Shown here: in pieces, positions 12,048 to 62,381 of the stretch
Position numbering within the stretch: position 1 is the first letter of the stretch
Layout of the letters: the number at the start of each line of letters is the position of its first letter
NCBI RefSeq assembly: GCF_028769735.1
Contig: NC_088173.1
Coordinates: forward strand, 66,646,463 to 66,710,462
Reading direction: 5' to 3'
Length of the DNA stretch: 64,000 nt
Origin: Zonotrichia leucophrys gambelii
Taxonomy: Eukaryota; Chordata; Aves; Passeriformes; Passerellidae
The notes under the pieces: generated by a model
Database searches by the model: none
What the model saw: the letters and a program-made list of their open reading frames with translations, nothing else
Told to the model about the DNA's origin: nothing
Translations under genes and position numbers: made by a program

Positions 12048-12573
12048 TGAGCTCAGGGTCTGGAAGGAGCTGTGCTTGACCCCTGGCATTGCCCAGGGGA
12101 GCTCAGGGTATGGAAGGAGCTGTGCTTGACCCTGGCATTGCCAGAGGAGCTCAGGTTAGGAAGGAGCTGTGCTTGATCTGGCATTGCCAGGGGAGCTCAG
12201 GGTATGGAAGGAGCTGTGCTTGACCCTGGCATTGCCCAGGGGAGCTCAGGGTATGGAAGGAGCTGTGCTTGGCCCTGGCATTGCCCAGGAAAGCTCAGGG
12301 TATGGAAGGAGCTGTGCTTGGCCCTGGCATTGCCCAGGGGAGCTCAGGGTATGGAAGGAGCTGTGCTTGACCCTGGCATTGCCTGGAGGAGCTCAGGGTA
12401 TGGAAGGAGCTGTGCTTGACCCTGGCATTGCCCAGGGGAGCTCAGGGTGTGGAAGGAGCTGTGCTTGACCCTGGCATTGCCCAGGGGAGCTCAGGGTTTG
12501 GAAGGAGCTGTGCTTGACCCTGGCATTGCCCAGGGGAGCTCAGGGTATGGAAGGAGCTGTGCTTGACCCTGCA
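12048..12573. repeat. Minisatellite, 50-bp unit, about 10 copies
   Basis: Tandem array with the unit GAGCTCAGGGTATGGAAGGA followed by GCTGTGCTTGACCCTGGCAT and TGCCCAGGGG. Copies differ by a few substitutions and small deletions. Open frames across it are by-products of the repeat. A short run of TGTCCGTG units follows at about 12598-12628. Confidence 0.93.
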
Positions 12574-18300: not shown

Positions 18301-18805
18301 GAAGGGAAGACCTCACTGTCTGGAGGTGTGAAGGTTTCCTTGGAGTCCTTGCTGGGATGTGCATGGAGGGTGCTCAGCAATCCCGGGCTTGAGAGATGGG
18401 TGCTGCCCTTCCAGTGTCTTCTCAGGGACGTGACACCTTCCCAGCTTCTCTGAAGTGACTCCATTTACACTTCTTGCAAAGCCTTTTTTTCCCCACCCTT
18501 CTCCCTCCCCTCTGGAAGCCCTCATTGGATCCATCTCTGTTCCCAGTGCAGGTGGTGCTGCAGCCGCCCCTCTGGCTGCCCTTTGCTGGCTGAGGTGATG
18601 CCACCCTTCCTTCCAAACTCACTGAGCACACCTCAAGGTCAGCCTTTTTGGTTTGCTTTTTACCCCCTTAATCATTTACCCCAGTGTGTTGGATTCAATA
18701 GAAAGGTTTTCCTTGTCCCTCCCGGTGAAGGGGCTGCAGAGCCCCGTGTCCGTACTCACAGAATCCCAGAGCGAGCAGCAGGAGCAGGGCAGGAGACGTG
18801 TCCAT
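15374..18805 (-). CDS. CD8A: CD8 alpha chain, copy 2 (with Lck-binding Cys-x-Cys exon)
   Basis: CD8 alpha co-receptor chain. Minus-strand coding exons are: signal 18805-18760; Ig-V 18195-17833; hinge 17279-17193 (Thr/Pro-rich, ATTTVAPSTTAPTTQGS...); TM 16817-16701, ending VLCQ; cytoplasmic micro-exon 15408-15378. Introns 1-4 have GT..AG borders in phase 1. The micro-exon has a strong pyrimidine tract (TTTTCTCTCTTTTCTTAG) and encodes QTRRRRCRCK. Cys-x-Cys after a basic run is the zinc-clasp motif with which CD8 alpha holds the kinase Lck. Read straight on, the exon stops at TGA 15376-15374, giving 215 residues. It also ends in a good donor (GAG/GTGAGT), so a further 3' exon may exist that I could not find. 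The V domain has the canonical Cys, Trp and DxGxYxC residues. Intron 4 holds the 16.4-kb minisatellite. Confidence 0.88.
15842..15905. repeat. AT-rich short tandem repeat (ATTATTTC)
   Basis: Low-complexity run of ATTATTTC / AATTATTTAAGT units inside intron 4 of CD8A copy 2. Confidence 0.7.
16400..16692. repeat. G-rich minisatellite in CD8A copy 2 intron 4
   Basis: About a dozen units of the form GGGATGGGTCTGGAGAGGG plus TTTGTG or TGTG, roughly 24-29 bp each. It ends next to the TM exon, only about 10 bases from the donor at 16700. Long open frames in all registers come from the repeat. Confidence 0.92.
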
Positions 18806-25361: not shown

Positions 25362-25439
25362 GTGCTGTGGTGGCGCTCAGCTGTGGTGCTGCCATGTGGA
25401 AGAGCAGCATGCACCTCTGAGAATGCTGTGCCTGTCCCC

Positions 25440-26335
25440 AGAGCCCAGCAGGAAGGGTTTGTGTGCATGTCATGGTGCCTGCAGAGCCACAGCCCAGCAG
25501 GAAGGGTTTGTGTGCATGTCATGGTGCCTGCAGAGCCACAGCCCAGCAGGAAGGGTTTGTGTGCATGTCATGGTGCCTGCAGGGCCACAGCCCAGCAGGA
25601 AGGGTCTGTGTGCATGTCATGGTGCCTGCAGGGCCCAGCAGGAAGGGTTTGTGTGCATGTCATGGTGCTGCAGGCCAGCAGGAAGGGTTGTGGCATGTCA
25701 TGGTGCCTGCAGAGCGCCCAGCAGGAGGGGTTTGTGTGCATGTCATGGTGCCTGCAGGGCCCAGCAGGAAGGGTTTGTGTGCATGTCATGGTGCCTGCAG
25801 GGCCCAGCAGGAAGGGTTTGTGTGCATGTCATGGTGCCTGCAGAGCCCAGCAGGAAGGGTCTGTGTGCATGTCATGGTGCCTGCAGGCCCCACAGCCCAG
25901 CAGGAAGGGTTTGTGTGCATGTCATGGTGCCTGCAGGGCCCAGCAGGAAGGGTCTGTGTGCATGTCATGGTGCCTGCAGAGCCACAGCCCAGCAGGAAGG
26001 GTTTGTGTGCATGTCATGGTGCCTGCAGGGCCCACAGCCCAGCAGGAAGGGTCTGTGTGCATGTCATGGTGCCTGCAGGGCCCAGCAGGAAGGGTCTGTG
26101 TGCATGTCATGGTGCCTGCAGGGCCCAGCCAGCAGAAGGGTCTGTGTGCATGTCATGGTGCCTGCAGGCCCAGAGCCCAGCAGGAAGGGTTGTGTGCATG
26201 TCATGGTGCCTGCAGAGCCCAGCAGGAAGGGTCTGTGTGCATGTCATGGTGCCTGCAGAGCCCACAGCCCAGCAGGAAGGGTTTGTGTGCATGTCATGGT
26301 GCCTGCAGAGCCCACAGCCCAGCAGGATGTGTGCT
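25440..26335. repeat. Minisatellite, 43-bp unit, about 19-20 copies
   Basis: Unit: CCCAGCAGGAAGGGTTTGTG, TGCATGTCATGGTGCCTGCA, GAG or GGG. Some copies carry an extra 5-6 bases (CCACAG). The unit length is not a multiple of three and all three plus frames are open, so the 300-codon open frames are repeat artefacts. Confidence 0.95.
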
Positions 26336-26819: not shown

Positions 26820-27085
26820 GTGGTTGGGCACAAGTTTTTATTATTCATTCTTGTTAAGCCTTCTGTCTGTATCCTTCTCTTTAGCATAGTTTTAGTATAT
26901 AATATAATATAATATAATATAATATAATATAATATAATATAATATAATATAATATAATATAATATAATATAATATAATATAATATAATATAATATAATAT
27001 AATATAATATAATATAAATCAGCCTTCTGAGAACATGGAGTCGGATTTTCATCTCTCATCTCATCCTTGGGACCCTCACAAACAT
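26820..27085 (+). mobile_element. LTR fragment with expanded AATAT microsatellite
   Basis: The flanks read TCTTTAGCATAGTTTTAGTAT and AATCAGCCTTCTGAGAACATGGAGTC..TCATCTCTC, matching in opposite orientation the 3' half of the LTR at 33336-33721. Between them the short TATAATA run has grown to about 120 bases of AATAT pentamers (26897-27017). Only the 3' part of the LTR is present. Confidence 0.7.
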
Positions 27086-31043: not shown

Positions 31044-31556
31044 CAGGGGTGTCACACAGGGCTCAGGGCACAGGGGTGTCACACAGGGCTCAGGGCACAG
31101 GGGTGTCACACAGGGGTGTCACACAGGGGTGTCACACAGGGGTGTCACACAGGGCTCAGGGGTGTCACTCAGGGGTGTCACACATGGGTGTCACACAGGG
31201 CTCATGGCACAGGGGTGTCACACAGGGCTCAGGGCACAGGGGTGTCACACAGGGGTGTCACACAGGGGTGTCACACAGGGCTCAGGGCACACGGGTGTCA
31301 CACAGGGCTCAGGGCACAGGGGTGTCACACAGGGCTCAGGGCACAGGGGTGTCACTGGGGTGTCACACAGGGTGTCACACAGGGCTCAGGGCACAGGGGT
31401 GTCACACAGGGGTGTCACACAGGGGTGTCACACAGGGCTCAGGGCACAGGGGTGTCACACAGGGGTGTCACACAGGGGTGTCACACAGGGCTCAGGGCAC
31501 AGGGGTGTCACACAGGGGTGTCACACAGGGCACAGGGGTGTCACACAGGGGTGTCG
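31044..31556. repeat. Composite minisatellite of AGGGGTGTCACAC units
   Basis: Tandem 15-bp units (GGGGTGTCACACA) alternate with a 12-bp insert (GGGCTCAGGGCACA), giving 15- and 27-bp steps over about 510 bases. Long open frames across it are artefacts. Confidence 0.93.
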
Positions 31557-35800: not shown

Positions 35801-38800
35801 AAAACACAGGGCATGGCAATACCAGGTCCTCCCAAGGAAATCCTCGAGCACTGGGAGCAATGCTGTGCTCAAGGCAAGCCCACAGCAAAGCAACTGCTGA
35901 TGGCAAAAGGACTATCACACAAAGCTGACCTAAATTTTAGCCATTTTCTGTATTTTCTGCAACTGCTGATGGCAAAAAGGACTATCACACAAAGCTGACC
36001 TAAATTTTAGCCTTTTTCTGTATTTTCTGCTTTATCCGATCTCAGAGACAAAACCCAGAGCCCCAACCTTGCAACTCAAAAATTGGGAAGAATCAAAACA
36101 ACCCCTTTCCCAGGCTCATCACAGCTACTGGTGGCACATTTTGGAAGCCCGAGGGTGCTGCTTACCCACTGTGAGCTGTGTGCCAGTGCCCACGAGCAGC
36201 TGGGAGGCCTGGGACGTGGAGCAGTAGTAGATGCCGCTGTCTGAGGGCTGCAGGTGGCTGATGTGCAGGCTGTAGGAGCTCTGGGACCTCGCCTCATGGG
36301 CACTGAACTTGTCCTGCCTCACCTCTGGGCCATAGGTGGCTCTGCCCATTGTGTTGGAGAACAACAAGAACTGGAATTGTTGCCTCTCCTGGCTCCAGCG
36401 GTACCAGTACACCCCGGTGTGCTCCTTCTTCAGGTCACAGAGGATTTCAGTTTTATTGCTGGTTTGGGTTAGAATATGCCCTGGAGTTTGGGCTAATAGC
36501 AGAGTTGTATAAAAACCTAAGGAAAATGAGAAATATACAGTTATTCTTTAAATTTCATCATTTTTCTTTCGTCCAAAATACAAATTTTATTTATGGGCTT
36601 AATAAAATCACAATAAACACACAGGCCAGAGGGGTCACACGAGTGAGAAACAAGAGCATTTTTTATCAGGATGCTCCCATATTCCCTCAGAGGCCTTTTT
36701 GGGTTCCCCAGGTATTGTTTTGGCCAGGCCAAATTATACAGGCAGATTTTCTCTGTAAACACTCCTATAGGAAGGAGGCAGACTGACAGGGAGAGGGATG
36801 GAGGGATGGTTTGGAGGGTCTCCTGGGGGCTGTACGTACAGGGAAGAGCATCCCTGCCTGCCCCTGTGAATGCCCCTCTCCTGCCCTCCTTACCTTTCTC
36901 ATTTTTCAAACATTTTACCCCTTTTTCAACAAATTTTAGTGCCTCTTAACTGATTTGCCATATTTTATTTCTTGCAGATACAACACCAATAAACATTTCA
37001 GGGGCAGAAAAAGAGACAAAAAACATGCAAAACCTCTCAAAATGAGCCAATTTGATATTAGTCTTCAGACAATAATATTTTTCAAAGGAATTTTGCGACA
37101 TGGGAAAGGAGAGGGAGTGAGGGGCAGCGGTGGGGTTCAAAGCTTTGGTTTGGCATCACATCTCCCTGTTTGGGCTTTGCAGCTTTGTGGAAATTATCTG
37201 AGTCTTGTTTGGCCCAGGCAGATGTGAGGGGTGTCCTTGTGGAAAGGATAACAGGTAACTTGTGATCCTTGCTGTTCAGCAAACAGTCCTGCAAAGCTGC
37301 AGATACTCTGAGCCCGAGTGAAAAACAGCCCTCTGCAGATAAGGGCACTCCTGCTGCCCCCATCTCTTTCCCAGGCTTGTTTTGAAGCTGTGCAAAAAGC
37401 TCAATAATACACGTTTCTTGTCTTTTTCTTTTTAATTATAAAATGTTCCTTTTTCTTCAAAATCCTGAAGTTGCTTACAGCAGTTTTTCAGCCTCATGCA
37501 GCCCTGTGGTGTGGGGATGGATGGGCACGACCCAAGAACATCTAAAGGCATTGATGTGGCACAAAGTCCTGATGTCTCCCATGTTCCCAATGGGACAGGC
37601 AGAGGAGAGGGCTCTGGTGGCTGACAGGGGTCCAGAGCCTTCCTCTGTCCCCACACCAAGGACCCCAGTGCTGCAGAACACCAATATTGTAATGACAATA
37701 TTCCAGAGTTGCACAGCAGCTGTAGCATTTCACCACATCCTCTGGCTCTGTGACAGCATTAATGTCTCTTTTGATTAAAATAGATAGTTTTAAGGCTTTA
37801 GAGAGGTTTAAGTTCTCTCAGATTAAGAAAGAATTAAATTTAAGTTTTAAATTTTCTCAGATTTTGTCCTGGCAAACACCTGTGTTGTTTTTTAGGGGAT
37901 GAAATGTGTGTGGCCACAGCACACGGGGGCTTCAGGGTCTCCCTGAGTGCCCTGAGGTCCAGCTCTGCTGGGCATGGGAAACAAAACTCTCCAAGAAAAA
38001 CTTATCTTTGACCTGGTGGAGACATTGCTATATAAGTCAGAAAAGATAAGAAGAGATTCTGGAAGATCTCAGCTCAGCGTCAGTGGTCAGCCAGGAGTGA
38101 GCTGGGATGGAGACAGAGAAGAAAACTCATCCTCACTCATACCTTCAACCCCAAAACCTCTCTGTTCCCTTTCCTGGTGAATATTCAGGGGCACCATGGG
38201 GAATCACAGTGCTTGGCTAGACCAGCCTGCAGCAACTTAATGATTACCCCTTTTCCTTTTGCATGGGCAAAGCAAACTCCCATTTATTGAGGCTTTCTCA
38301 GTGGGCTCCCCACTTCACAAATCTATAGGATACCAGAACCTGTAAGGCAGAATGGTTTTACAGCACACAAATTCCAGCTGTGGTCCTTGGGAAGTACTCA
38401 GTCTTTGGATGATTTAGAAAATTTGGGATGTTTGTCTTCTTTGTGTTATACCGGCAGTGGAGATTTTAACTTCTCCATTAGCAGCTTCATCTGCACTGAG
38501 GAGTAAAAACTCTGTGGTGTCTATACCACTATGGACAGAATATAGAGTAGAGTAGAATGGAATGGAATGGAATAGAATAGAATAGAACAGAACTATTTCA
38601 ATTGGAAGGGAACCACAGCAACCAGCTGGTCCCACTTTCTGACCAGTTCAGGGCTGACCAAAACCTAAAGCATGATCCAAAGTGATTTGAAATAGGCAAT
38701 AATGCCCTGTAGATCTCTAGTGTGATGGTATATTTAATCTGCCATCATCCAGCTGCTGGAGTGTGGTGGAGGAGAGGCTCCAGCAGGATTTTAGGTGCCC

Positions 38801-42239: not shown

Positions 42240-42254
42240 GACAGCCAGAGGACA

Positions 42255-42690
42255 GGCTCCAGCTCTCCCTCTTCAGGACATTTGGTGCAAGCAGGAGTTT
42301 AGCGTGAGCCATGATAATCCTGGACCTCCCCTAACAGATAAGGGGCAGTGCAGGTGCTGCCGTGTGATCTCAACTTCCCTAATCAGTGTCGAAGAGGATA
42401 AGGAAAGACAAGCAAAGTGTCCTTGGGAAGGCAGCACACGGAGGAGGAAAAGACACCAAGGAAGTAAACACAGGTGTCACCAGCCCCAAACAACGACCTG
42501 CCATGGCTATAAAAATCACCAGGCTGCCACCTCGTCACCACCTTTACCTTAAGGGTGCTGGATCTGCTGGATCTCTGCAGAGACCATCTCCAGACTCCTG
42601 GGACTGCCGGAACGCTCAGCCGAGGATTGGTGAGATCTCATTATTGGGCTCCTACTCCGTCTCTCCTTTGCTTCACCCGCTCCCACATCC
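42255..42690 (+). repeat. 5' LTR of the endogenous retrovirus
   Basis: Colinear with the 3' LTR over about 380 bases. Matching segments include AGTTTAGCGTGAG / AGTTAGCATAAG, AGGATAAGGAAAG / GGGTAAGGAAAG, TGTCCTTGGGAAGG / TGTCTTTGGAAGG, the TATA region, and a perfect 15-base block GGATTGGTGAGATCT. By eye only about 60% of bases agree overall. Edges are approximate. Confidence 0.7.
42508..42515 (+). promoter_or_regulatory. TATA box of the 5' LTR
   Basis: TATAAAAA in GGCTATAAAAATCACC. The equivalent position in the 3' LTR reads GATAAAAG, so only the 5' copy keeps a good TATA box. It would start the gag-pol-env transcript about 30 bases downstream. Confidence 0.55.
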
Positions 42691-42951
42691 CGCATCCCTT
42701 CCCCGTTCCCTCCCGGGAGCCGGCGGCTCGCGGCAGCTGCCGGCCCGGCCGCGGCCTCCTGTTCCTGCCTTCCCCTTCCCTTGTGCCCAGGCTCGGTGTC
42801 CCCCCGGGGCCAGTGCTTTCTGGAGAGGTGGGTTGTGGGGTTGTGGGGTTGTGGCCTTGCTCTGTGGAGGGGCCGAAGGAGTTGTCAGTGCTGGTGTGTT
42901 AGGGTAGTTTTGCCCTGAGTTGGAGCGGTCTCAGATCTTGTTCCCTTTGCT

Positions 42952-44649
42952 ATGATGAGTGACATTGTTAGCAGTTGGAAGCTGGAGCAGTTTGTGCTCC
43001 AGAAGTGTCTCCCCCCAATTTGGTCACCAGGGTCTTTCCAGGGCCCAGATGCTTACCAGCAGCTGTGCCAGCAGTGGGAGAGCTGGTCGGAGGAGAACAA
43101 AAAGCCCAAACCCACTAACAAGTGTAAGAAGCGAGCGGCTTTGCAGGGTTTGCTGATGGTAGGCAGGGAGTTGTCCAAATTGCTGAAGGAGGCTCTTGAG
43201 AATGTGCAGACCTTGGAGAAGGCCAAGGAGGAGCTCAAGGCCCGGGTGGACAACCTGCAGGCGGAGGTGCAGGGTCTGTGTGGGGACTCTCTGCGGAACG
43301 CGGTGGAGATCACCCGGCTGGAAAACAAGCTGGGCTATGAGAAGCTGAAAACGGAGGAGCTGAAAAAGGAGGTTGGCAAGTGGATTGGGGAGACCCACGA
43401 TGCTCAGAGCGCGGTGAGGGCGGTCCTGCAGGACGTCCAGCGGGACCGGGGCACTGGCCCCGATCACAAGGTGTGCCACACCAAGATCCAGGAGCTGGAG
43501 GCAGAGCTGGGGGTGTCAAGGGGCATTGTGGCTGCCATTAAAGGCAAGAGGACTCAGATTGGGACTGGTGATGGGGAGGACTCCCTGGACCTGCACCCAC
43601 CCCACTATGATTATGAGGATGATGTGTGGGGTGCTAACAGCCCCACCAGGCCGTCCCCCTATGCTCCTCTGCGGGAGGAGGTGTGCCAGCTGCAAGTAGG
43701 GGAGGCAGAGGCTTCCAAAGATAAAAAGGTCCCCCACGATGAGCCAGTCAGCCATGTCCCACTCCAACCCATAGACACCAACAGGGCTGTCCTCTGGTTT
43801 ACCCCTGAGCAGCTTAAGACAGTGGGGAAGATGCTGGGGCCACTGACAAAGGAGACAGCAATTAACTGGCTGTCCAGGGTCCAGCGTCTGCCCAAGTGCC
43901 AGAGTGGCAGCTTTGTGAGTGACCTGATAGACATTGTGAGAAAGTCCATGAAACCAGATGATTTTGCGTCACTGCCAGGGGATGTGCAGATGGGCAATGT
44001 CCCGGACATTGGGGATGTCCAGCTGGCCGTGCTGAAAGTGTTCTTCCCAGAGGTCAACCCCTTAGTGCTCTTCCACCAGGAGAAGCAAAACCCTGAGGAG
44101 AGGCCCGATGCCTATGTTAACCGTAAAAAGATGCTCTACCAGATAGCTGGGCTGCCTGGCTCAAAGAACTCCCCTCCTGATTTTGACAGGATTGAATTCA
44201 AGCAGCCTCTGGTGATGGGGCTGACACCCCCACTGCGGGTGATTGCTGGTGGGGATGCAGACAAAAAGCCTCTGTCAGAGCTGGAGCAGTTCCTGAACCA
44301 GAATTTTGAGCTGCAAAAGCAGGCATTCCCAGGGTACACGTCGGGGGGGAAGAAAGGGAAAACCTTGGGCATGCCTTTCCAAAATGCAGGGATGAGAAAG
44401 ATGCAAGGAGACAACCGAAAAGATCCTGACAGCAAGGGGGGGATGGGGAAGGAGAACCAGCAAGGGCTCAGGTTTCAGAAGTCTAACGCTTGGCGGGCTG
44501 AGCTGAGGAAGCGCTTGCTAAAATATGAGAAACCGGAGGACATTGATGGCTTGCCGGAAGCAGAGCTCTTCAAAAAACTGGCCCTGCACGAGACCAAAAA
44601 AACCAGCAGCTCCCACCTGATTGACCCGGGGGCTAAGGCTCAGCAATAG
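42952..44649 (+). CDS. Endogenous retroviral Gag, full-length open frame
   Basis: Structural polyprotein of the element, 565 residues. Residues 72-142 form a strongly predicted coiled coil (repeated Leu/Glu/Lys heptads). PPHY at 216-219 fits the PPxY late-domain type used to recruit ESCRT-linked ubiquitin ligases. Residues about 278-345 look like a capsid N-terminal domain. Residues 376-399 (KQNPEERPDAYVNRKKMLYQ and following) resemble the capsid major homology region. The C-terminus is Lys/Gly-rich and lacks any Cys-His zinc knuckle. It ends in CAA TAG, after which pol continues in the same frame. No frameshift or internal stop is present. The first of two adjacent Met codons was chosen; no upstream in-frame extension is needed. 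Assignment as Gag rests on position plus these motifs. Confidence 0.85.
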   Translation: MMSDIVSSWKLEQFVLQKCLPPIWSPGSFQGPDAYQQLCQQWESWSEENKKPKPTNKCKKRAALQGLLMVGRELSKLLKEALENVQTLEKAKEELKARVDNLQAEVQGLCGDSLRNAVEITRLENKLGYEKLKTEELKKEVGKWIGETHDAQSAVRAVLQDVQRDRGTGPDHKVCHTKIQELEAELGVSRGIVAAIKGKRTQIGTGDGEDSLDLHPPHYDYEDDVWGANSPTRPSPYAPLREEVCQLQVGEAEASKDKKVPHDEPVSHVPLQPIDTNRAVLWFTPEQLKTVGKMLGPLTKETAINWLSRVQRLPKCQSGSFVSDLIDIVRKSMKPDDFASLPGDVQMGNVPDIGDVQLAVLKVFFPEVNPLVLFHQEKQNPEERPDAYVNRKKMLYQIAGLPGSKNSPPDFDRIEFKQPLVMGLTPPLRVIAGGDADKKPLSELEQFLNQNFELQKQAFPGYTSGGKKGKTLGMPFQNAGMRKMQGDNRKDPDSKGGMGKENQQGLRFQKSNAWRAELRKRLLKYEKPEDIDGLPEAELFKKLALHETKKTSSSHLIDPGAKAQQ

Positions 44650-44664
44650 GGCTGCCAGGCACCC
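44647..44664 (+). promoter_or_regulatory. Gag-pol UAG readthrough site
   Basis: The only stop between gag and pol is TAG at 44647-44649, in the context CAA TAG GGC TGC CAG. The next codons stay open in the same frame into pol. Gammaretroviruses make Gag-Pol by reading through such a UAG with a 3' RNA structure. I did not fold the RNA. Confidence 0.6.
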
Positions 44665-47600
44665 GCATCGCCCCTTTTTGTGGCACCGATTAAGACCGAT
44701 TTGTGGGGGCGCCTGATAGTTGATACAACTATTGGAGGGGGGGTGCTTGGACAAGTGATGTTAATTGATATTGGTGCCTCTTATTCAATTCTGAACATGG
44801 TCCCTGGCAGAGCCGGGATCTTCCAAACCTCTGAAATTATTGAACTGACAAGGCCCAACGGCCAGAAATCCTCAGTGCCCTTCACAGGGCCCATACCCTT
44901 TGAAATTGGGGCTGCCAAAGGGTCTGAAAAATTTGGGAAAATAGAAATGAAAGGAAAGCCAGGAATTTTAGCCATCTCCACACTGACAAAGATGGGAGTG
45001 GTGGTGGACCTGGCAAACCAAGCGTTGCTACATTGCCCACAAATTGATTTGCCTGTCATCCCGGCAAGCCACAGGGTGATGTCAGTGAAAGCCCCTGAGA
45101 TCCTGGTCCATCCTGAGTGGGAGCCCCGGGTGAAACGGGTCACAGAGCAGTTCCCCCAGGTCTGGGCAAGGAGCAAGCTGGACTGTGGGCAGACTGATGC
45201 TGCTGTGTCCATCAAAGGGCCGGATCCGCCTCCTCAGCTTCAGCCCTGGTACCCGGCTGAGGCTGAGGACAGCTTGTGGGACACAGTCAAAACCTTGCTG
45301 AACCAGGGCGTTCTGGTGGAGCAGCAGAGCACCAGCAACGCCCCAGTGTGGCCCCTGAGGAAAGCTGATGGGAAAACGTGGAAGCTGACAGTTGATTTCA
45401 GCACCCTGAACCAAGTCACCCCGATGCAGACCTCCACGGTGGTCAGGTACCCCAACATCATGGCAGCCATCGCCCGGGGCTCCGAGTGGTTCTCGGTGCT
45501 CAGCCTGACCAGCCCATCATTTGCCATCCCCTTGCACCCCGAGTCCTGGCACAAGTTTGCCTTCACGATTCGAGGGCGGCAATTTGCTTTCACCAGAGTT
45601 CCCCCGGGTTTCCACAGTGCCCCTGCCATCTGCCACGCCCGCGTGGTGAGGATGTGGGAGCAGGTCAGCCACAGGGAGAGCGTGCTGTCCTGTGCTGGGG
45701 ATATCCTCATCCACACCCGGACCAAGGAGAAGAACCTGGAGGTGCTGGCAGAGGTGCTGGGGGCTGTCCAGAAGACAGGGTTCAGGATCAGCCCCACAAA
45801 GGCCCAGCTGTGCTGGAAGGAGGTTTCCTTTGTGGGGGTGACCCTGGGGGAGGAAGGGCGCTCACTGGAAAAGCAGAGGGTTGAGCTAATACAGAAGATG
45901 TCAGCCCCGTCTGATGTCACCACTCTGAGGTCCTTCCTGTTCCTCCTGAGGTTGTGCCGTGAGTTCATTGAGAGCTATGCAGAGAAAACAGCTCCCCTTT
46001 GCCACCTCCTGAAAAAGAACACCCCCTGGGAATGGGGGCCAGAGCAGGAAGAGGCAGTGAAGACCTTGAAGGAGAGTGTGGCACAAGCCCCCACGCTGGC
46101 ACATCCCTGGGGGGACAGACCCTATGTTCTGCAGCTGGCCAGCACGGGCATGGGGCTGCAGGCCACCCTGGGCCAGCAGCACAGCGCCAAGCTGCTCCCT
46201 GTGGCCCACGCCTCGCGTCTCCTGACGCCAGCTGAGCAACAGTTCAGTGACTATGAGAGGGAGGTTCTGGCCTTAACCTGGGCCCTGCAGCACTGGGAAT
46301 ACGTGCTGGGCTCAGCCCCAGTGCTGCTGAGGACCTCCTGCACCCCGGTGAGGTACCTCTTGTTGGGAAAGGGGGATGAAGGTCCCCTGTGCTGCCCCAG
46401 AATGGCCAACTGGGGGCTGGCGCTGACCAACAAGGAGGTCCCTGGGGACCTCTCCCCTGGCGCCTACAGGGTGCTAATCTGTGCAGAGAGGGATGGGGAG
46501 GAGCTGGGGGTGTCCCTTACTGACCCCAAGCCACGGAGGGCACCCCTCTTTGAGAGCAGCCTCAGCCTGGAGGAGGCCAAGGAGAGAGGCTACGTTGTGT
46601 GGTTCGTGGATGGGTCCAACTACCACGAGGAAGGGGTGCCCTACACGGGCTATGCCGCTGTCAACAGGGGCACGGGGGAGGTGGTGAAGGGGAGGTGCCT
46701 GCCACACTCCATCCAGGCCGCCGAGCTGGTGGCCGTGATGGCTGCCCTGGAAAACACGCCCTCAGACAAGCCACTGGCCATATTTTCAGACTCGGGTTGG
46801 GTGGTGCGTGTGGCACTGGAGTGGCTGCCCCTCTGGAGGGAGAGGGACATGCAGTCTGCTGATGGCAAGCCTGTCACCTATGCCAAAAAGCTGCTGTACC
46901 TTGCCAGGCTGGCAGAGCAGAGGGTGTGCCCGGCACAGATCATCAAGGTCAAGGCCCACAAGAAGGGAACAGAGGAAGCCAAGTGGAACAAGGAGGCAGA
47001 TGCCAAAGCCAAGCAGGGTGCCAAGGAAGGGCTGATGTGGAAGGCCAGCAAGGTATCAGAGAATGGCCCAGTGTTGGTGGCTCCCAGCAGGCATTGGGAG
47101 AGCGTGGATCTGGTGGGCTTGCAGGCACAGGACCCCAGGCTCAGGGAGTTAGTGCAGGGCAAGGAGTACAAAGGGTGCAAGGTGTGGAAAGACGTCTCAG
47201 GGCTGATCCTGGCACGGAGGGAGGGGGCAGATTTCCCAGTCTGGGTGGTGCCTGGGCTGGTCCGGACAGAGCTGGTGGCCCTGGCTCATGAGCAAGGGCA
47301 TCTGGGGACAGACAAGACCATGGTGAAGCTGCAGGGTGCTGGGTGGTGGCCTGAAATGAGAGAGGATGTGGAGAGGTATGTCAGCAACTGCCTGACCTGT
47401 GCAGCCAACAATCCCGATGCCAAAACAGCCAAAGCCATCCTGGGCCACCAGAGGGCTTCTGGGCCGTGGAGCAAGTTGCAGATGGAGTTTATTGGCCCTC
47501 TGCCCCAAACAGCCCAAGGCAATAAGTACTGCCTAGTGGTCAGTGATATCTTCACCAAATGGGTGGAAGCATTCCCAGCCCGAAACAACTCAGCCAGTGC

Positions 47601-48315
47601 CACTGCAAAGATCCTGGTAGAGCACATCTTCTCACAGTGGGGCATCCCAAAGGAGATCCACTCAGATCACGGCCAGCGCTTCATTGGGGAGGTCACAAAG
47701 GGGGTGTGTCAGGCCCTGGGAATCAAGCAAAAGCTCCACATCACAGGGCATTTCCAGAAGCCAATCTCAGCAGAGGGACCCAACCAGCCACTAAAGACAG
47801 CCCTGAGGAAGCTTGTGAGCCAGCAAAGGAAAGACTGGGATCATAAGCTCCCACTGACCTTGCTGGCACTGAGGGGGTCTCTGGCATCTCAAACACTTTC
47901 CCCCACAAAATTTCCTCCTGCAAGAGACCCGAAGTTTCTGGAACACTGGTGGCAAGGAGGGGAGCCCCCAGATGAAATGCAGCCCCGCGTCCTGATGGAC
48001 AGGTGGGTCCAGGACATGCTGAGAACGGTGTCAGCCACCTACCACCAGCTTGCCTCAGTGCAGGAGACCAGCATCCCAAAGATGGATAAGCAGCTGGGAG
48101 TGCTGCTGCGCCCCGTGGAGTGGAACACAGGGGACCTGGTCATATACAGAGGGGTTAGGGAGAAGAACCAGGTGCTGGAACCCCAGTGGCTGGGGCCTGT
48201 TAGGGTTGTGAACAAGGCCAGCCCCTCTGTGTACCAGGTAGAAATCAGAAAAGGGGCAAAAAGGCAGGAGAAATGGTTCCATTCTTCACAATTAAAAGCA
48301 TGGAAGGGAAACTAA
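44650..48315 (+). CDS. Endogenous retroviral Pol (protease, RT, RNase H, integrase), RT catalytically dead
   Basis: Open from the gag stop to 48315. Residues are numbered from the GTG at 44680. Protease: DIGAS at 30-34, Asp kept but Thr of DTG replaced by Ile. RT: motif A reads FSVLSL at 271-276, so the catalytic Asp is Ser275. The YXDD box reads CAGD at 338-341, losing Tyr and one Asp. RNase H: Asp644, Glu682, Asp704 and Asp774 are all present. Integrase: HHCC zinc module (AHEQGHLG...CLTC), first catalytic Asp replaced by Glu936, then Asp996 and Glu1032 with the normal 35-residue spacing. A GPY/F-like segment (EPQWLGPVRVV) lies near the C-terminus. An RT like this cannot be expected to polymerise, yet there is no stop or frameshift in 1211 codons. 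Lacking its own Met start, it must be made by readthrough or from another transcript. Confidence 0.88.
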   Translation, partial: GCQAPASPLFVAPIKTDLWGRLIVDTTIGGGVLGQVMLIDIGASYSILNMVPGRAGIFQTSEIIELTRPNGQKSSVPFTGPIPFEIGAAKGSEKFGKIEMKGKPGILAISTLTKMGVVVDLANQALLHCPQIDLPVIPASHRVMSVKAPEILVHPEWEPRVKRVTEQFPQVWARSKLDCGQTDAAVSIKGPDPPPQLQPWYPAEAEDSLWDTVKTLLNQGVLVEQQSTSNAPVWPLRKADGKTWKLTVDFSTLNQVTPMQTSTVVRYPNIMAAIARGSEWFSVLSLTSPSFAIPLHPESWHKFAFTIRGRQFAFTRVPPGFHSAPAICHARVVRMWEQVSHRESVLSCAGDILIHTRTKEKNLEVLAEVLGAVQKTGFRISPTKAQLCWKEVSFVGVTLGEEGRSLEKQRVELIQKMSAPSDVTTLRSFLFLLRLCREFIESYAEKTAPLCHLLKKNTPWEWGPEQEEAVKTLKESVAQAPTLAHPWGDRPYVLQLASTGMGLQATLGQQHSAKLLPVAHASRLLTPAEQQFSDYEREVLALTWALQHWEYVLGSAPVLLRTSCTPVRYLLLGKGDEGPLCCPRMANWGLALTNKEVPGDLSPGAYRVLICAERDGEELGVSLTDPKPRRAPLFESSLSLEEAKERGYVVWFVDGSNYHEEGVPYTGYAAVNRGTGEVVKGRCLPHSIQAAELVAVMAALENTPSDKPLAIFSDSGWVVRVALEWLPLWRERDMQSADGKPVTYAKKLLYLARLAEQRVCPAQIIKVKAHKKGTEEAKWNKEADAKAKQGAKEGLMWKASKVSENGPVLVAPSRHWESVDLVGLQAQDPRLRELVQGKEYKGCKVWKDVSGLILARREGADFPVWVVPGLVRTELVALAHEQGHLGTDKTMVKLQGAGWWPEMREDVERYVSNCLTCAANNPDAKTAKAILGHQRASGPWSKLQMEFIGPLPQTAQGNKYCLVVSDIFTKWVEAFPARNNSASATAKILVEHIFSQWGIPKEIHSDHGQRFIGEVTKGVCQALGIKQKLHITGHFQKPISAEGPNQPLKTALRKLVSQQRKDWDHKLPLTLLALRGSLASQTLSPTKFPPARDPKFLEHWWQGGEPPDEMQPRVLMDRWVQDMLRTVSATYHQLASVQETSIPKMDKQLGVLLRPVEWNTGDLVIYRGVREKNQVLEPQWLGPVRVVNKASPSVYQVEIRKGAKRQEKWFHSSQLKAWKGN

Positions 48316-48332
48316 CGGGGCTGGAGAGGCCT

Positions 48333-48351
48333 CCTTGCTTATGTTTTGCAG
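48333..48351 (+). promoter_or_regulatory. Likely splice acceptor for env mRNA
   Basis: CTTGCTTATGTTTTGCAG, a pyrimidine-rich tract ending in CAG, stops 10 bases before the env start codon at 48362. That is where a subgenomic env message would be spliced. A plausible donor is ATTG/GTGAGA at 42629/42630 in the 5' LTR region, or GAG/GTGGGT near 42828. Confidence 0.5.
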
Positions 48352-48361
48352 ATAAAGGAAA

Positions 48362-50986
48362 ATGGAAGGCGATTGTGACCAGCGGGAAGGGCGATCTTCG
48401 TGGCATCACCAGCCCTGTTTGTGCTGCGGGGAAAATGCTTTCAAATTTGTGATTGCAGGATTTACTTTGCTTTCTGGTATGTGCATAGTGCTGAGCACCC
48501 ACTGTGTCCAACTGACCCATCAGCATCTTGGTAAAAATGTCACTCATTCTCACTTAGAAAGGCACCTTGACACACAGGCCACAGCTCAGCACAGGCTTAG
48601 GAGGCACACAAAAACTGGGACTGATTGGCCCTGGTCCCAAGCTTACATAAGACACACAGGAATCATGGGATTAAATTCTAGCAAAGGCTTAAATTTGTCA
48701 ACAGTGGTTATGCATGGGGCAGAGGTGTACTTGGAAAATGAGTGGGGCTGGGATAGCACAAACAGACTTCCACAGCTGCTGGGAAAGGTGGGACAGCAAA
48801 TAAAGGTGGGGTGCAGGGTAATTAATGGATCCACTCACCAGCAAGTAACTCAAATCTCTGTCATTGAAATAAAAACTAAGAAGAATCAGAACAAAATCTG
48901 TGCTGTGGAAAATTTGGACTGCTGGTACAATTTTACTTTGGTCCAGCCAGTCTTTGTGGTTTGCCTTTGGGCACACAACAGCATGGGGCTGTCCTTTAAA
49001 TTTAAGATCAGCACCACAGCACCCTCATTTGCTGCCATTAAGATCTCAAAGTGCCATTTTTTGGCCTGGCATGCACCCCGTTATGTTGAAATTGGCAACC
49101 AGGTAAAACTGGAAATTAAATACTCCCAAGAAAGTGTTGCTGACCCAATGCAAATTAATGACACCACCGTGACTGTCACAGCCCCTGACAGCCATAAGTG
49201 GATCATTCCACTGACCTGCCTCTGTGAGACCAAAACACTTGATAGATCTGAATTAGACATGGAGGCTTCGTGGTATAATCAGGATTATGGACGCTGCCCA
49301 CACCTGATCATAACCCTCCAGGTGTGGTGTCAAGGAAACCTGAGCGTAGAAATGTCCCCCAAACTCGGAGGAAAGTGGTGGATAGGAGGCCCCGAAGGAT
49401 TTAAAAAAGAATTTGCCATCATTGCTGTCTTGCCCCCTTTCATTTCCAAAATAGGTCCTTACGTAGTGAAGAAAAATCACATCCAGGAGCTGTTGACAGG
49501 GCCTGTCCGGTCACTAAAGAAGGTGGTGCTGTCTCTCTCCACTGTTAACATTTCCTCTGTCAGCCCACACTGTGCCCCTTTCCTGTCCATTCTGCACACT
49601 GGCTGGCTGGCCTGGCTCCACAGCCGCTCCCTCCAGGCCGCCCGGGCCAGGAGGGACCTGCTGGCCACAGCCCTGGGAGGAGGAGCTGCTGGCCTGGGAG
49701 TCCTCAACAGCATGGACGCTGAAGTCTTGGCAAACAAGCTGGAGACTGTCACCTCGGGCGTGCAGGGCCTCCTCAAGCCCCTGAATTCATCCCTGTCCAG
49801 CCTTGGGATGGGGCAGTGGCTTGTGTCAGAGGTGCTTCCCACCTGGGAACAAATAAGTGAGAAAGACCATCAGATGCTGTTGCGAGCCCTGGGCGAGGAA
49901 CAAAGTAACATCTCTCTTGCTCTTAGCTGCATCCAGGCCCAGATGTGGGTGCAGAGTGTTGTTGCAGGCATCCTGAGAGATGGTGACAACGGCATCCTGC
50001 CCACCGAGATCCGAAAGATCGTGTGGGACGCGGCCACAGAGAAGGAGCGGCAGCTCCAGGCCTGGTGGAGGCTCGTCAACTTCACCCACGACCAGGCCCT
50101 CAACGCGGTCATTGCCCACGTCCTCACTGTGGCAGAGGCTCACATTGAAAAGGTTTACCCCATCGTGGCCCTGGGGGTGAACACCAACGGGTCTGTGGTC
50201 TACCCCCTGGAGCACCGCATGTGGGCCAGGGTGTCTGACGGGAGGTGGGAGACGGTGGATTTGGAAGCCTGCATTTTGGAGAGGGGGCTGGGATTCATAT
50301 GCGAAGATGATGCCCTTAAGGCGAGTGATGTGTGCTTTGACACCAAAGAAGGGGTGTGCCACTTTGAGATCAACCCCCAGAGCAGTAACAGAACCATGAT
50401 ACTGTACGTAGGGAAGGGCTGCGTGTGCTTCAGAACTATGTGTAAATACGTGCAGATTAATGAAGCTTATAACCAGACTGTGTTTAGTGACTCAAATATG
50501 TGTGCTTGCAATGTAGCTACTATTAGAGGTTGTGATTTTGTGTATAAACCACCCGTGCTTACTAGCCAGTTGCTAATCAGAAACTATACCTTGTATCGTA
50601 GTATAACCCCAACCCCCATAGGTATGGATTTATCACTTGTAAAAGAAATGTTAGAGCATGCAGATTTGCAGCAGCTGCTAGAAAATGCCAAGGCCCAAGC
50701 TAAAAAGGTCCTAATAACGGTTCACCACGATGGTAAAGTTATAAAACAGGTCATGGAACGAATTAAGAGGGCGGGAGAGCACCACTGGTGGGAAGTTTTT
50801 TTTGGCTGGTCCCCCACGGCCACTGGCATTTTCAACACGCTGCTGCACCCCATTGTAGTCATCCTGCTGATGCAAATCTGTGTGTGCTTTGCCATGGTAG
50901 TCACTTGTTACCGGATGAGGCAGGTGAAGCTCTGCTTTGATAACCAGGTGAAAGGAGCAGGGCTGGCCAAGAGCCTCCTGAAATAG
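48362..50986 (+). CDS. Endogenous retroviral Env, full-length open frame
   Basis: Envelope glycoprotein precursor, 874 residues. A hydrophobic leader lies at about 27-45 after a 26-residue N-terminal extension. There is a furin-type RLRR at 78-81 and a second at 428-431 (RARR). The second is followed by a Gly/Ala-rich fusion-peptide-like stretch (DLLATALGGGAAGLGVLN), so it should divide SU from TM. The TM part is about 443 residues, long for a gammaretrovirus-type TM. I see no CX6CC motif and no classic immunosuppressive LQNR-type segment. The membrane anchor is at about 819-850, then a 24-residue tail. Many N-x-S/T sequons remain. It starts 46 bases after the pol stop, in another frame, and is probably translated from a spliced mRNA. 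No break was seen. Fusogenicity cannot be judged from sequence. Confidence 0.86.
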   Translation: MEGDCDQREGRSSWHHQPCLCCGENAFKFVIAGFTLLSGMCIVLSTHCVQLTHQHLGKNVTHSHLERHLDTQATAQHRLRRHTKTGTDWPWSQAYIRHTGIMGLNSSKGLNLSTVVMHGAEVYLENEWGWDSTNRLPQLLGKVGQQIKVGCRVINGSTHQQVTQISVIEIKTKKNQNKICAVENLDCWYNFTLVQPVFVVCLWAHNSMGLSFKFKISTTAPSFAAIKISKCHFLAWHAPRYVEIGNQVKLEIKYSQESVADPMQINDTTVTVTAPDSHKWIIPLTCLCETKTLDRSELDMEASWYNQDYGRCPHLIITLQVWCQGNLSVEMSPKLGGKWWIGGPEGFKKEFAIIAVLPPFISKIGPYVVKKNHIQELLTGPVRSLKKVVLSLSTVNISSVSPHCAPFLSILHTGWLAWLHSRSLQAARARRDLLATALGGGAAGLGVLNSMDAEVLANKLETVTSGVQGLLKPLNSSLSSLGMGQWLVSEVLPTWEQISEKDHQMLLRALGEEQSNISLALSCIQAQMWVQSVVAGILRDGDNGILPTEIRKIVWDAATEKERQLQAWWRLVNFTHDQALNAVIAHVLTVAEAHIEKVYPIVALGVNTNGSVVYPLEHRMWARVSDGRWETVDLEACILERGLGFICEDDALKASDVCFDTKEGVCHFEINPQSSNRTMILYVGKGCVCFRTMCKYVQINEAYNQTVFSDSNMCACNVATIRGCDFVYKPPVLTSQLLIRNYTLYRSITPTPIGMDLSLVKEMLEHADLQQLLENAKAQAKKVLITVHHDGKVIKQVMERIKRAGEHHWWEVFFGWSPTATGIFNTLLHPIVVILLMQICVCFAMVVTCYRMRQVKLCFDNQVKGAGLAKSLLK

Positions 50987-51180
50987 TCAAGGGCAAGACT
51001 GGGTTGGCCTCTGTGTTTGCCACCAAGAAGATCTTTTGGCTCCGCTGTTGGCTGCAACCCAGTAGGCGTTGAGCGGTGGGGACACACGCCATGCCAGACC
51101 TTGATGACAGGGATGGCCTTCTCTGTTACCAGAGGGCCACCCAGGAGGGGAGGACAGGCCAAGCAACCTGCAGATGGCAT

Positions 51181-51367
51181 GAGTCACAGAATGGCTGAGG
51201 TTGGAAGGGACCTCTAGAGAGATTTCATTTAGTCTGAACCCACCTGCTCAAGCAGATTGCCCAGGACTGTGTTCAGCTGGGTTTTGACCACCTCCATGGA
51301 TGGAGACTCCACAAATTCTCTGGGCAAACCTGTTTCATTGTTTAATCACCCTCATAGCAAAGAAGCA
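51181..51367 (-). mobile_element. CR1 3' fragment within the retroviral 3' LTR
   Basis: TCACAGAATGGCTGAGGTTG, GAAGGGACCTCTAGAGA, CACCTGCTCAAGCAGATTGC, CCTCCATGGATGGAGACTCC and TCACCCTCATAGCAAAGAAG form a classic complementary CR1 3' end. Confidence 0.88.
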
Positions 51368-51490
51368 AAAGTTAGCATAAGTAGCTTGTTTTTGAACTTC
51401 TCATCCCCAAATAGTAATGTTAAGATGCTGCTCTTGTGTGATTTAAGAGTCCTTAAACCAGGGAGATAGGGGTAAGGAAAGCCATGGACA

Positions 51491-52072
51491 CTCTTGGAAG
51501 GTTGTGGTCTATTGCAGCCTGAGACAAATGAAAAGTCTCTGTTTCGGCCCGCACGTTCAAAGAATGAATTGGAGTTCTTAATTTCTTGTCTCAATGTTTA
51601 TTGTATCTTATGTATAAAAATTTTTCTCCTGCCTTGCTGAGGCCCATCCAGCAGGACAGTTCCAGGCACTCTGCCTGCCCCCGGGGCGTATTTACAATAA
51701 CTTCCCAATACCTATAACCTATGTTAAACAGTGAGCTTCTACTCTAAACCAATCTAAAAGTGCCAGCATCACAGCAGAAGATGGAGGTAAAGAAGAAGAA
51801 GAACAAAGGCTATTCACACCCAAGTCCTTGCATCTTGTCCCCAAAACCCCTATTCTAAAACCCCCAAAATCTACTTTTTCAATTAGTGATGATTTTATTA
51901 TTACACTACTTAAACTTCTGTGGCTTTCAGGTCTTCATACAAAGCTGGTAATTTGCTCCAGGGGTCATAATCAAACCCACAGGTGTTCTGGGCTGTGTGC
52001 CAGGGTCTCTGTGCCCCCTGGCAGGGGTCCTGGCCATCCTGGACACCCAGAGGGATGTACTGAGTTCCAACA
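51491..52072 (-). mobile_element. Solo LTR (second family) inside the retroviral 3' LTR
   Basis: On the minus strand it begins TGTTGGAACTCAGTACATCC. It is homologous along its length to 61210-61821: CTCTGTGCCCCCTG, AAGCTGGTAATTTGCTCCA, CAAAATCTACTTTTTCA, CAGCAGAAGATGGAGG, CTAAACCAATCTAAAAGTGC, CTATAACCTATGTTA. The 5-bp duplication GGACA flanks it at 51486-51490 and 52073-52077. Confidence 0.88.
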
Positions 52073-52367
52073 GGACATTGTCTTTGGAAGGAAAGAGAAG
52101 GAAATTTAACACCTGAGCTTGGAAAAGCACCCATGGAAGACAGCAGGGGTGTGAGCAGCCTCAAAGACTTGGAAAGATGATAAAAGATGAGCAGAACAGA
52201 AGACCCTGTAGTCACCATGGACTTTAAGGAGCTGAATCCACATGGACCTTTGCAGCATCACCTCCAGGTTCCCAAGACTCCCAGCACGCCTGGCCAGCGG
52301 ATTGGTGAGATCTTGTTTTTGGAGCCTGGACTTCACTGCTTTGCTTTGCTTAGTTGTGCATGTACTC

Positions 52368-52373
52368 AATAAA
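52368..52373 (+). terminator. AATAAA polyadenylation signal of the 3' LTR
   Basis: AATAAA in TGTACTCAATAAATCTGTCTG at the end of the 3' LTR, correctly placed to end the gag-pol-env transcript. The matching part of the 5' LTR has no AATAAA. Confidence 0.6.
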
Positions 52374-52400
52374 TCTGTCTGTTAGAGAATGGGCTGTCTG

Positions 52401-53895: not shown

Positions 53896-54188
53896 CCATC
53901 CATCCATCCATCCATCCATCCATCCATCCATCCATCCATCCATCCATCCATCCATCCATCATCCATCCATCCATCATCCATCCTTCCATCCATCCATCCA
54001 TCCATCATCCATCCATCCATCCATCATCCATCCATCCCTCCATCCATCCATCCATCCATCCATCATCCATCCATCCATCATCCATCCATCCATCCATCCA
54101 TCCATCCATCCATCCATCCATCCATCCATCCATCCATCCATCCATCCATCCATCCATCCATCCATCCATCCATCCATCCATCCATCCA
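53896..54188. repeat. (ATCC)n microsatellite, about 290 bp
   Basis: Almost uninterrupted CCAT tetramers with occasional ATC triplets and single substitutions. The Ser/Ile/His/Pro and Met/Asp/Gly/Trp open frames here are repeat artefacts. Confidence 0.97.
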
Positions 54189-61209: not shown

Positions 61210-61821
61210 TCCCGGGTTTGTTGTTGCTGAAATGGCTCCCGAGGTATATTAAAAAGTGGATTTTTTTCCCAGCCCCGTGCTCGAGGAAGAAGTTGAGATT
61301 CCTCAGATCTAGTTTTCAAGGTTGTTTACTTTCTATTATCTATTACATTCTTTCTCTGACCTGCTGAGGTCTGTCTGGCAGGTTGGGTTGAGGCACACTG
61401 ACCATCCTTGGGGCAGTGTTATTTTTTATACTAAAAACTAAGTGTACTTTATTTACAATAATTATCCAATATCTATCACCTATGTTAGACAGTCTGTCTC
61501 TATCCTAAACCAATCCAGAAGTGCCACTATCACAGCAGAAAATGGAGGACAAGAAGAAGGAGAATGACAAGACATGCCCAGATTCCTCCATCTTGCCTCT
61601 TGAACCCCCATTCTAAATCCCCAAAATTCTACTTTTTCATCCTGTGATAAATTCACTAACATTCTACTCAAACACTCGTGGCTTGTAACTCTTCACACAA
61701 AGTTGGTAATTGTTTCCATGGGTTAAAATTGAAGGCAAAGTGGTTTTGACTCCATGCCAAGGTCTCTGAGCCCCCTGCCAGGGTCTCCAGGGCAGCCAGA
61801 GGAATGTCCTGGGTTCCAACA
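61210..61821 (-). mobile_element. Solo LTR, same family as 51491-52072
   Basis: On the minus strand it begins TGTTGGAACCCAGGACATTCC and is colinear with the 51.5-kb LTR to its far end near 61210. The 5-bp duplication AGAGA flanks it at 61205-61209 and 61822-61826. Confidence 0.88.
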
Positions 61822-62381
61822 AGAGAGACACCAAAAAGCCTCTCATGAAATTGCTTTTAAATGATCAGTTTTCAGCAGGGCTGCTCTCATTCCTTAAAAA
61901 TCATGAATATAGGAAGAAAATCTCCTAGGCATTGCGTATATTACAACCATTTCCATGTTTAATGGACTCATTTTCCACATAGAGCTGGTAACCAAAAAAG
62001 CAAAGCAAACCAAAACCCCAATAGCAAATAACATGAGTAACAATTTTGTTAAACTGCAGATAGGTCAATAGCAGTTTTCTACACTCCTGTTTTGGGGGAT
62101 TGTAATTCTGTTCTAAACAAATATTTAAAATCACACCAGTTCTACATCTGTCTTTTGTACTTTTATTATTATTGTGCCTTGTTGACTTGGTGATCTTTGA
62201 AGTATTTTCCAGCCTTAACAATTCTATAAAATGTTTTATCAAAATGCTTAATATGTAAGCAGCTTTGATATTTAGCCCAGTTGCACAACACTCTCTAAGA
62301 AGTACATCTGAAATCACCACCAAATCAATTTTGCAGTTAACACTTAACAGCCCTCTCCTGGGTAAAAGGGAAGGTACAAGA

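Follow-up and report, generated by a model that had tools for sequence, protein, structure and literature searches.

OVEX1 in a passerine: an old endogenous retrovirus most likely kept by its avian host for its proteins

The stretch of DNA analysed here (the window, 64,000 nucleotides of contig C5 in the 1.12 Gb genome of Zonotrichia leucophrys gambelii) holds an endogenous retrovirus (ERV) with open gag, pol and env frames. It is the passerine orthologue of OVEX1, a locus known from chicken and zebra finch (LOC422925, LOC422926; Carre-Eusebe 2009, PMC2717909; this and the other papers are cited from passages of their text). We make the assignment because the neighbouring genes, the layout of three open reading frames (ORFs), the in-frame TAG and strings of chicken Gag are the same and Env is 80% identical to that of chicken. 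The locus was already described in 2009, and finding it again is not new. Judged from its sequence, it is most likely a replication-dead host gene kept for its proteins, and we put the probability that it is both OVEX1 and co-opted at about 0.85. A single-copy ERV (pol and env being the parts whose copies were examined) would have inserted before the last common ancestor of living birds and then been kept by the host. A gene in which gag, pol and env have been kept together for so long is unusual.

The element is flanked on contig C5 by a probable CD8B exon and by SMYD1; in the chicken and zebra finch genomes, OVEX1 occupies the CD8-SMYD1 interval (PMC2717909). The first marker is a V-set exon outside the element (36128-36547, minus strand), which matches the Pfam V-set family at 1.6e-18 and CD8 beta chains in PDB at 2e-13. 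SMYD1 is represented by exons on the plus strand, about 34 kb beyond the element. MYND sequence there matches SMYD1 at 6.5e-33 (next SMYD 7e-10), and SET sequence at 9.7e-23 (next SMYD 2e-8). Env is 80% identical to chicken LOC422926 across 100% of its length, and the major homology region and nuclear-signal strings given for chicken Gag (PMC2717909) recur letter for letter. Sixteen protein relatives of Pol, ostrich included, are 79-92% identical, the next best match being 31% over most of its length; seven relatives of Gag are at 78-92%. Crane, stork, hummingbird, woodpecker, hornbill, chicken, kiwi and ostrich are among the birds with relatives at 78-92%. Named chicken Gag and Pol were absent among the matches listed, and no relative of the pol query was found in viral contigs. 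The proteins P0046 (pigeon) and P0054 (antbird) appear to be gene models in which the pol and env of a single locus have been fused, and were not counted as a further virus. A first-pass annotation of this DNA had proposed a passerine copy of OVEX1, which the CD8B-like and SMYD1 neighbours, the ORF layout and the match to chicken Env bear out; it had also named orthologues in other bird orders beforehand as a test, and the relatives just listed provide them.

All three frames are on the plus strand and are uninterrupted in the ORF list at the lengths given by that annotation (565, 1211 and 874 amino acids). The gag frame (42952-44649; 565 amino acids) ends in TAG, and its product has a predicted long helix, a PPHY motif at residues 216-219 and a major homology region. 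The pol frame (44680-48315) encodes 1211 amino acids from the listed GTG, or 1221 if counted as the whole open frame, with protease, reverse transcriptase (RT), RNase H and integrase recognized by Pfam and by their residues. The env-like ORF3 (48362-50986) encodes 874 amino acids. By arithmetic, pol is in the same frame as gag with a single TAG between them (44647-44649, plus strand), a presumed read-through site. In chicken, an unspliced OVEX1 mRNA serves for Gag and, presumably by read-through of the TAG, for Gag-Pol, a spliced mRNA serves for ORF3, and expression is strongest in the ovary (PMC2717909). A special read-through structure after the TAG was considered and rejected: the 84 bases 3' of it fold in an ordinary way (z -0.53, with 54 of 200 shuffles as good), as judged from one sequence and without a pseudoknot model. 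A probable splice acceptor for env, predicted from sequence, is at 48351-48352 (plus strand), where TTTTGCAG is followed by 10 bases and then the env ATG.

The intact frames are difficult to explain by chance. At 0.17 neutral substitutions per site, which is half the Jukes-Cantor distance between the remnants of the long terminal repeats (LTRs) and was estimated by hand, 11 stop-creating substitutions are expected in gag, 25 in pol and 18 in env. At 0.10 substitutions per site the expectation is still 6.5, 14.8 and 10.6, and the number observed is 0 in each frame. The expectation counts substitutions only, and counting insertions and deletions would make intact frames still harder to obtain by chance. 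The long-term selection on the proteins proposed in the first-pass annotation is supported. Between chicken and zebra finch, the ratio of non-synonymous to synonymous substitutions (dN/dS) is 0.08 for Gag, 0.18 for Pol and 0.16 for ORF3 (PMC2717909).

The residues lost and kept in Pol were compared in 17 rows, namely the window and 16 relatives, with pigeon P0046 excluded for lack of RT data. The first Asp of the RT YxDD motif is replaced by Gly in 16 rows and by Ser in one, and the first Asp of the integrase is Glu in all 17. YxDD and the first integrase Asp are kept in all 13 of the more distant relatives compared (P0064-P0076), which include frog and fish. Because the losses are common to every bird row and absent from every distant relative, RT and integrase were probably dead before the living birds split. 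The protease Asp is present in all 14 rows with data, within DTG in 12 of them and within DIG in the window and a hummingbird. The acidic residues of RNase H, D644, E682, D704 and D774, are kept in 17, 17, 16 and 17 rows, respectively. RNase H as a proven kept enzyme was nevertheless rejected: of all RNase H columns, 61% are invariant and 73% deviate in one row at most, so that the tetrad does not exceed its background. The H2C2 zinc ligands of the integrase likewise do not, because they are kept in 17/17 rows each against a background of 65%. Mean pairwise identity is 0.92 in H2C2, 0.89 in RNase H, 0.87 in protease, 0.86 in the integrase core, 0.84 in RT, 0.82 in the connection and 0.66 in the tether. 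As these alignments indicate, Pol is constrained even where catalysis is lost. The fixed pattern of lost and kept residues across many birds is an addition to the published accounts of OVEX1, as far as their cited passages go.

The ends of the element have decayed. A 5' LTR remnant (42400-42673, plus strand, with TATAAA at 42508) aligns to a 3' remnant (52088-52346, plus strand), which is followed by AATAAA at 52368. Of 249 aligned bases, 182 are identical (73%), and the alignment scores 135, where the best of 200 shuffles reached 42. Agreement is about 64% when all 284 alignment columns, gaps included, are counted; the figure of about 60% that had been given by eye was a fair one. The region before the TATA box matches even when taken alone (42400-42490 with 52088-52165, 58/77), its score of 47 exceeding the highest of 500 shuffles, 41. 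The degenerate direct repeats at both ends, together with the TATA box and the final poly(A) signal, are a trait of OVEX1. The element does not have the traits of a replication-competent provirus, its LTR remnants being 73% identical over 249 aligned bases and the active sites of RT and integrase being broken. Of the two insertions that the first-pass annotation had placed in the 3' LTR, the CR1 piece may have a counterpart in a dispersed repeat of the 3' untranslated region (UTR), directly before the 3' remnant (51689-52075, plus strand); this has a 73% identical copy at 61450-61824 of the window (387 columns, E 1e-59). The other, a second LTR, was not found. The 3' UTR of OVEX1 in chicken and zebra finch contains an antisense CR1-Y4 fragment (PMC2717909).

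Palaeognath birds are needed to date the OVEX1 insertion, a point left open in 2009 (PMC2717909), and both kiwi and ostrich belong to the Palaeognathae. Env relatives are 79-96% identical over at least 96% of their length, kiwi (81%, 874 amino acids) and chicken (80%, 873 amino acids) included. Ostrich Pol is 81% identical with 91% covered, and is near full length. Because kiwi has a full-length Env and ostrich a near-full-length Pol, the insertion probably predates the last common ancestor of living birds; it would be pushed back before their split if kiwi and ostrich turn out to carry their copies at the orthologous site. Both proteins are additions to the OVEX1 accounts in the passages cited. 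In a tree of Env the passerines group together, kiwi falls beside the chicken pair (100/99), and crane and woodpecker are unresolved; read as unrooted, the tree is compatible with descent along the phylogeny of birds. OVEX1 homologues have been mentioned in four reptiles (PMC5006616), and none of these was among the 47 Env matches listed (7,996 candidates scored).

In its own genome, the env has one full match at 100%, the others scored being at most 54% identical (52 of 2,098 candidates scored), and pol has one full match with the others scored at most 35% identical (38 of 4,172 candidates scored). A set of young, near-identical copies had been named as counter-evidence, and there are none for pol or env among the scored matches. 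The other env matches belong to a multi-copy ERV family, many members of which have long open frames and which shows 45-52% identity to the inner half of OVEX1 Env; they align with residues 356-844 and 85-220 and have no match to residues 221-355. Examples are C35:394750-396195, C60:97467-98912 and C4:113388861-113390303. The open frames suggest recent ERV activity in this bird. In three places (C42:132775-138275, C82:138166-144177 and C31:1675871-1681875), env and pol matches occur together, and there the pol shares just 27-31% identity with that of OVEX1. A divergent pol beside a related env supports, at the level of sequence, the proposal made in 2009 that OVEX1 arose by combining pol and env genes of separate ancestry (PMC2717909). 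As a separate observation, five loci (on C35, C60, C4, C36 and C32) each show two matches to residues 87-167 of OVEX1 Env, spaced by about 650 bases and both upstream of one env; the outer Env domain may be duplicated there.

Gag is the most evenly conserved of the three proteins, and the 8 aligned rows agree at 385 of its 565 columns. PPHY occurs in all of these rows and lies in a conserved island of an otherwise variable linker: 25 of 28 columns are invariant at residues 216-243 and 14 of 44 on its two sides (201-215 and 244-272), with a generous Fisher p of 1.9e-6. In many Gags PPxY is a late-domain motif. The major homology region (371-398) has 24 of 28 columns invariant, and thus Gag has by its sequence a late-domain motif and a major homology region, as in particle-forming Gags. 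The words PPXY, late domain and budding are absent from PMC2717909, and the PPxY island is, as far as the cited passages go, an addition to the published accounts. A basic stretch at residues 50-61 is invariant in 12/12 columns in the rows that carry the region, which 1 of the 8 rows does not.

Env has a hydrophobic stretch near residue 26, a beta-rich outer part, RARR at 428-431 followed by a Gly-rich hydrophobic stretch like a fusion peptide, and a membrane anchor near 823-850. In how it would work, this is a gamma-type layout, with a cleavage site between surface and transmembrane subunits (SU/TM), a fusion peptide and an anchor, which we take these motifs to be. The cleavage site R-x-(R/K)-R, as RxRR or RTKR, is kept in 16/16 rows (the window and 15 of the 27 orthologue-like matches). 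Conserved cleavage sites are likewise reported for the published ORF3, and CWLC, CKS17 and CX6CC motifs are missing from it in chicken and zebra finch (PMC2717909). The inner part of Env (356-822) is more alike among birds, at a mean identity of 0.89-0.92, than the outer part, at 0.73-0.86. Taken over the three proteins, the pattern of residues implies that reverse transcription and integration do not occur, and that RNase H activity, ESCRT recruitment and Env cleavage may.

What the proteins do for the host can be proposed only tentatively. They may act structurally and not as replication enzymes, a suggestion to which we give rather less than even odds. Gag would self-associate by way of its coiled coil and its capsid region and would meet the NEDD4/ESCRT pathway through PPxY, Env would be a cleaved membrane glycoprotein, and in the supporting cells of the ovary the two, jointly or separately, would have a part in membrane traffic or cell contact. 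The low dN/dS of Gag, 0.08 (PMC2717909), speaks for a steady physiological task. With some hesitation, we rank this role ahead of or level with the next two.

A comparably uncertain proposal is host defence, in which Env would occupy a receptor and Gag would poison incoming or assembling capsids of other retroviruses. Such a role has been favoured for OVEX1 Env, and the expression of OVEX1 in many tissues is in keeping with it (PMC5006616). It also gains from the many open env frames that are 45-52% identical to the inner half of Env, because of which a related virus family was active in this lineage. Defence genes usually evolve fast. The dN/dS values of OVEX1, 0.08 for Gag and 0.16 for ORF3, are however low (PMC2717909), and it is the inner half of Env that is most conserved and the outer part that varies more, although this distribution could fit either proposal.

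Somewhat less probable is a nuclear or regulatory Gag, acting in ovarian cells through its basic nuclear signal and a leucine zipper. A regulatory role has been suggested (PMC2717909), and the invariance of residues 50-61 in all 12 columns, in the rows having the stretch, agrees with it; but it leaves unexplained why the Pol and Env frames stay open in all sampled birds. We consider it unlikely that the locus works as a complete domesticated set common to the living birds, in which Gag of ovarian supporting cells would bud into vesicles or capsids that shuttle cargo between the oocyte and its granulosa cells, contact or uptake would be directed by Env, and RNase H would be a kept enzyme. Here Gag would have its late-domain motif, the protease and RNase H residues would have been kept, RT and integrase switched off before the crown birds, and Env left with its cleavage site and anchor.

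It is very improbable that the locus serves only through its RNA or a regulatory region and that chance has left the frames open. Promoter and poly(A) signals derived from the LTRs do persist, and the transcripts are tissue-regulated in chicken (PMC2717909), but none of the 11, 25 and 18 expected stops is seen, protein identity is 78-92% with near-equal lengths across birds, and conservation is uneven and tracks the domains. A younger, still mobile provirus, present here by chance, could account for three open frames but is refuted by the 73% identity of the LTR remnants, the lost active-site residues of RT and integrase, the lack of a near-identical pol or env copy among the scored genome matches, and the neighbouring genes, which are those found in chicken and zebra finch.

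Several points weigh against reading the locus as OVEX1 inserted before the living birds and co-opted by its host. The case for co-option is made from sequence. Taken by itself, the V-set exon is not proof of CD8B, since it scores better against some antibody and T-cell-receptor chains. The kiwi and ostrich copies are known as proteins, and the Env tree has 4 of its 11 inner branches unresolved and a distant outgroup that fails to place the root. The p-value of the PPHY island is generous, the island having been picked by eye before the test and the 8 rows being related. Gag matched no Pfam family above the cut-off, and its predicted structure, at a mean predicted local distance difference test score (pLDDT) of 46.9, is too poor to confirm a capsid.

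Outside the element, the window contains a number of tandem arrays. Those at 25438-26327 (43/93-base units) and 31044-31555 (27/53-base units) keep long stretches open in three reading frames each, which are mechanical and not genes. Others are at 12049-12571 (49-base unit, 10.7 copies), 16402-16693 (24/74-base unit), 26897-27017 (an ATATA run) and 53896-54188 (a CCAT array), and a two-copy 70-base unit (35890-36030) lies beside the CD8B-like exon. An open frame of 343 codons at 17300-18328 (plus strand) has no Pfam match at E 0.01.

Compared with OVEX1 of chicken and zebra finch (PMC2717909), the element has the same CD8-SMYD1 place, a Gag of 565 amino acids, an ORF3 of 873-874 amino acids and an in-frame amber codon, and it shares the lost RT and integrase residues and the decayed terminal repeats. 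No Gag zinc finger is reported for either, and gag-pol is single-copy in both published genomes. The published repeat is 120-122 bp and starts after the TATA box, unlike the 274 bp remnant found here, which reaches before it; as far as the cited passages of PMC2717909 go, the longer remnant is an added point. The protease motif is DIG here versus DTG in chicken, and the second integrase Asp is kept here versus the Glu reported in zebra finch (PMC2717909). CrocERV37-39 of crocodilians and SpeV of tuatara are reported to cluster with OVEX1 by RT; unlike it, they are ERV groups and in the cited passages are not described as single-copy host genes (PMC4299795, PMC2717909). The multi-copy avian env family, GGLTR11/TERV-like by the description in PMC2717909, shares residues 356-844 (45-52%) and 85-220 of Env. 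Unlike OVEX1, this family has many copies, which lack a match to residues 221-355. Syncytins and PEG10-type genes are retroviral or retrotransposon genes kept by their hosts, and can be compared with OVEX1 in the way they work only; they differ from OVEX1, in which a single locus retains gag, pol and env.

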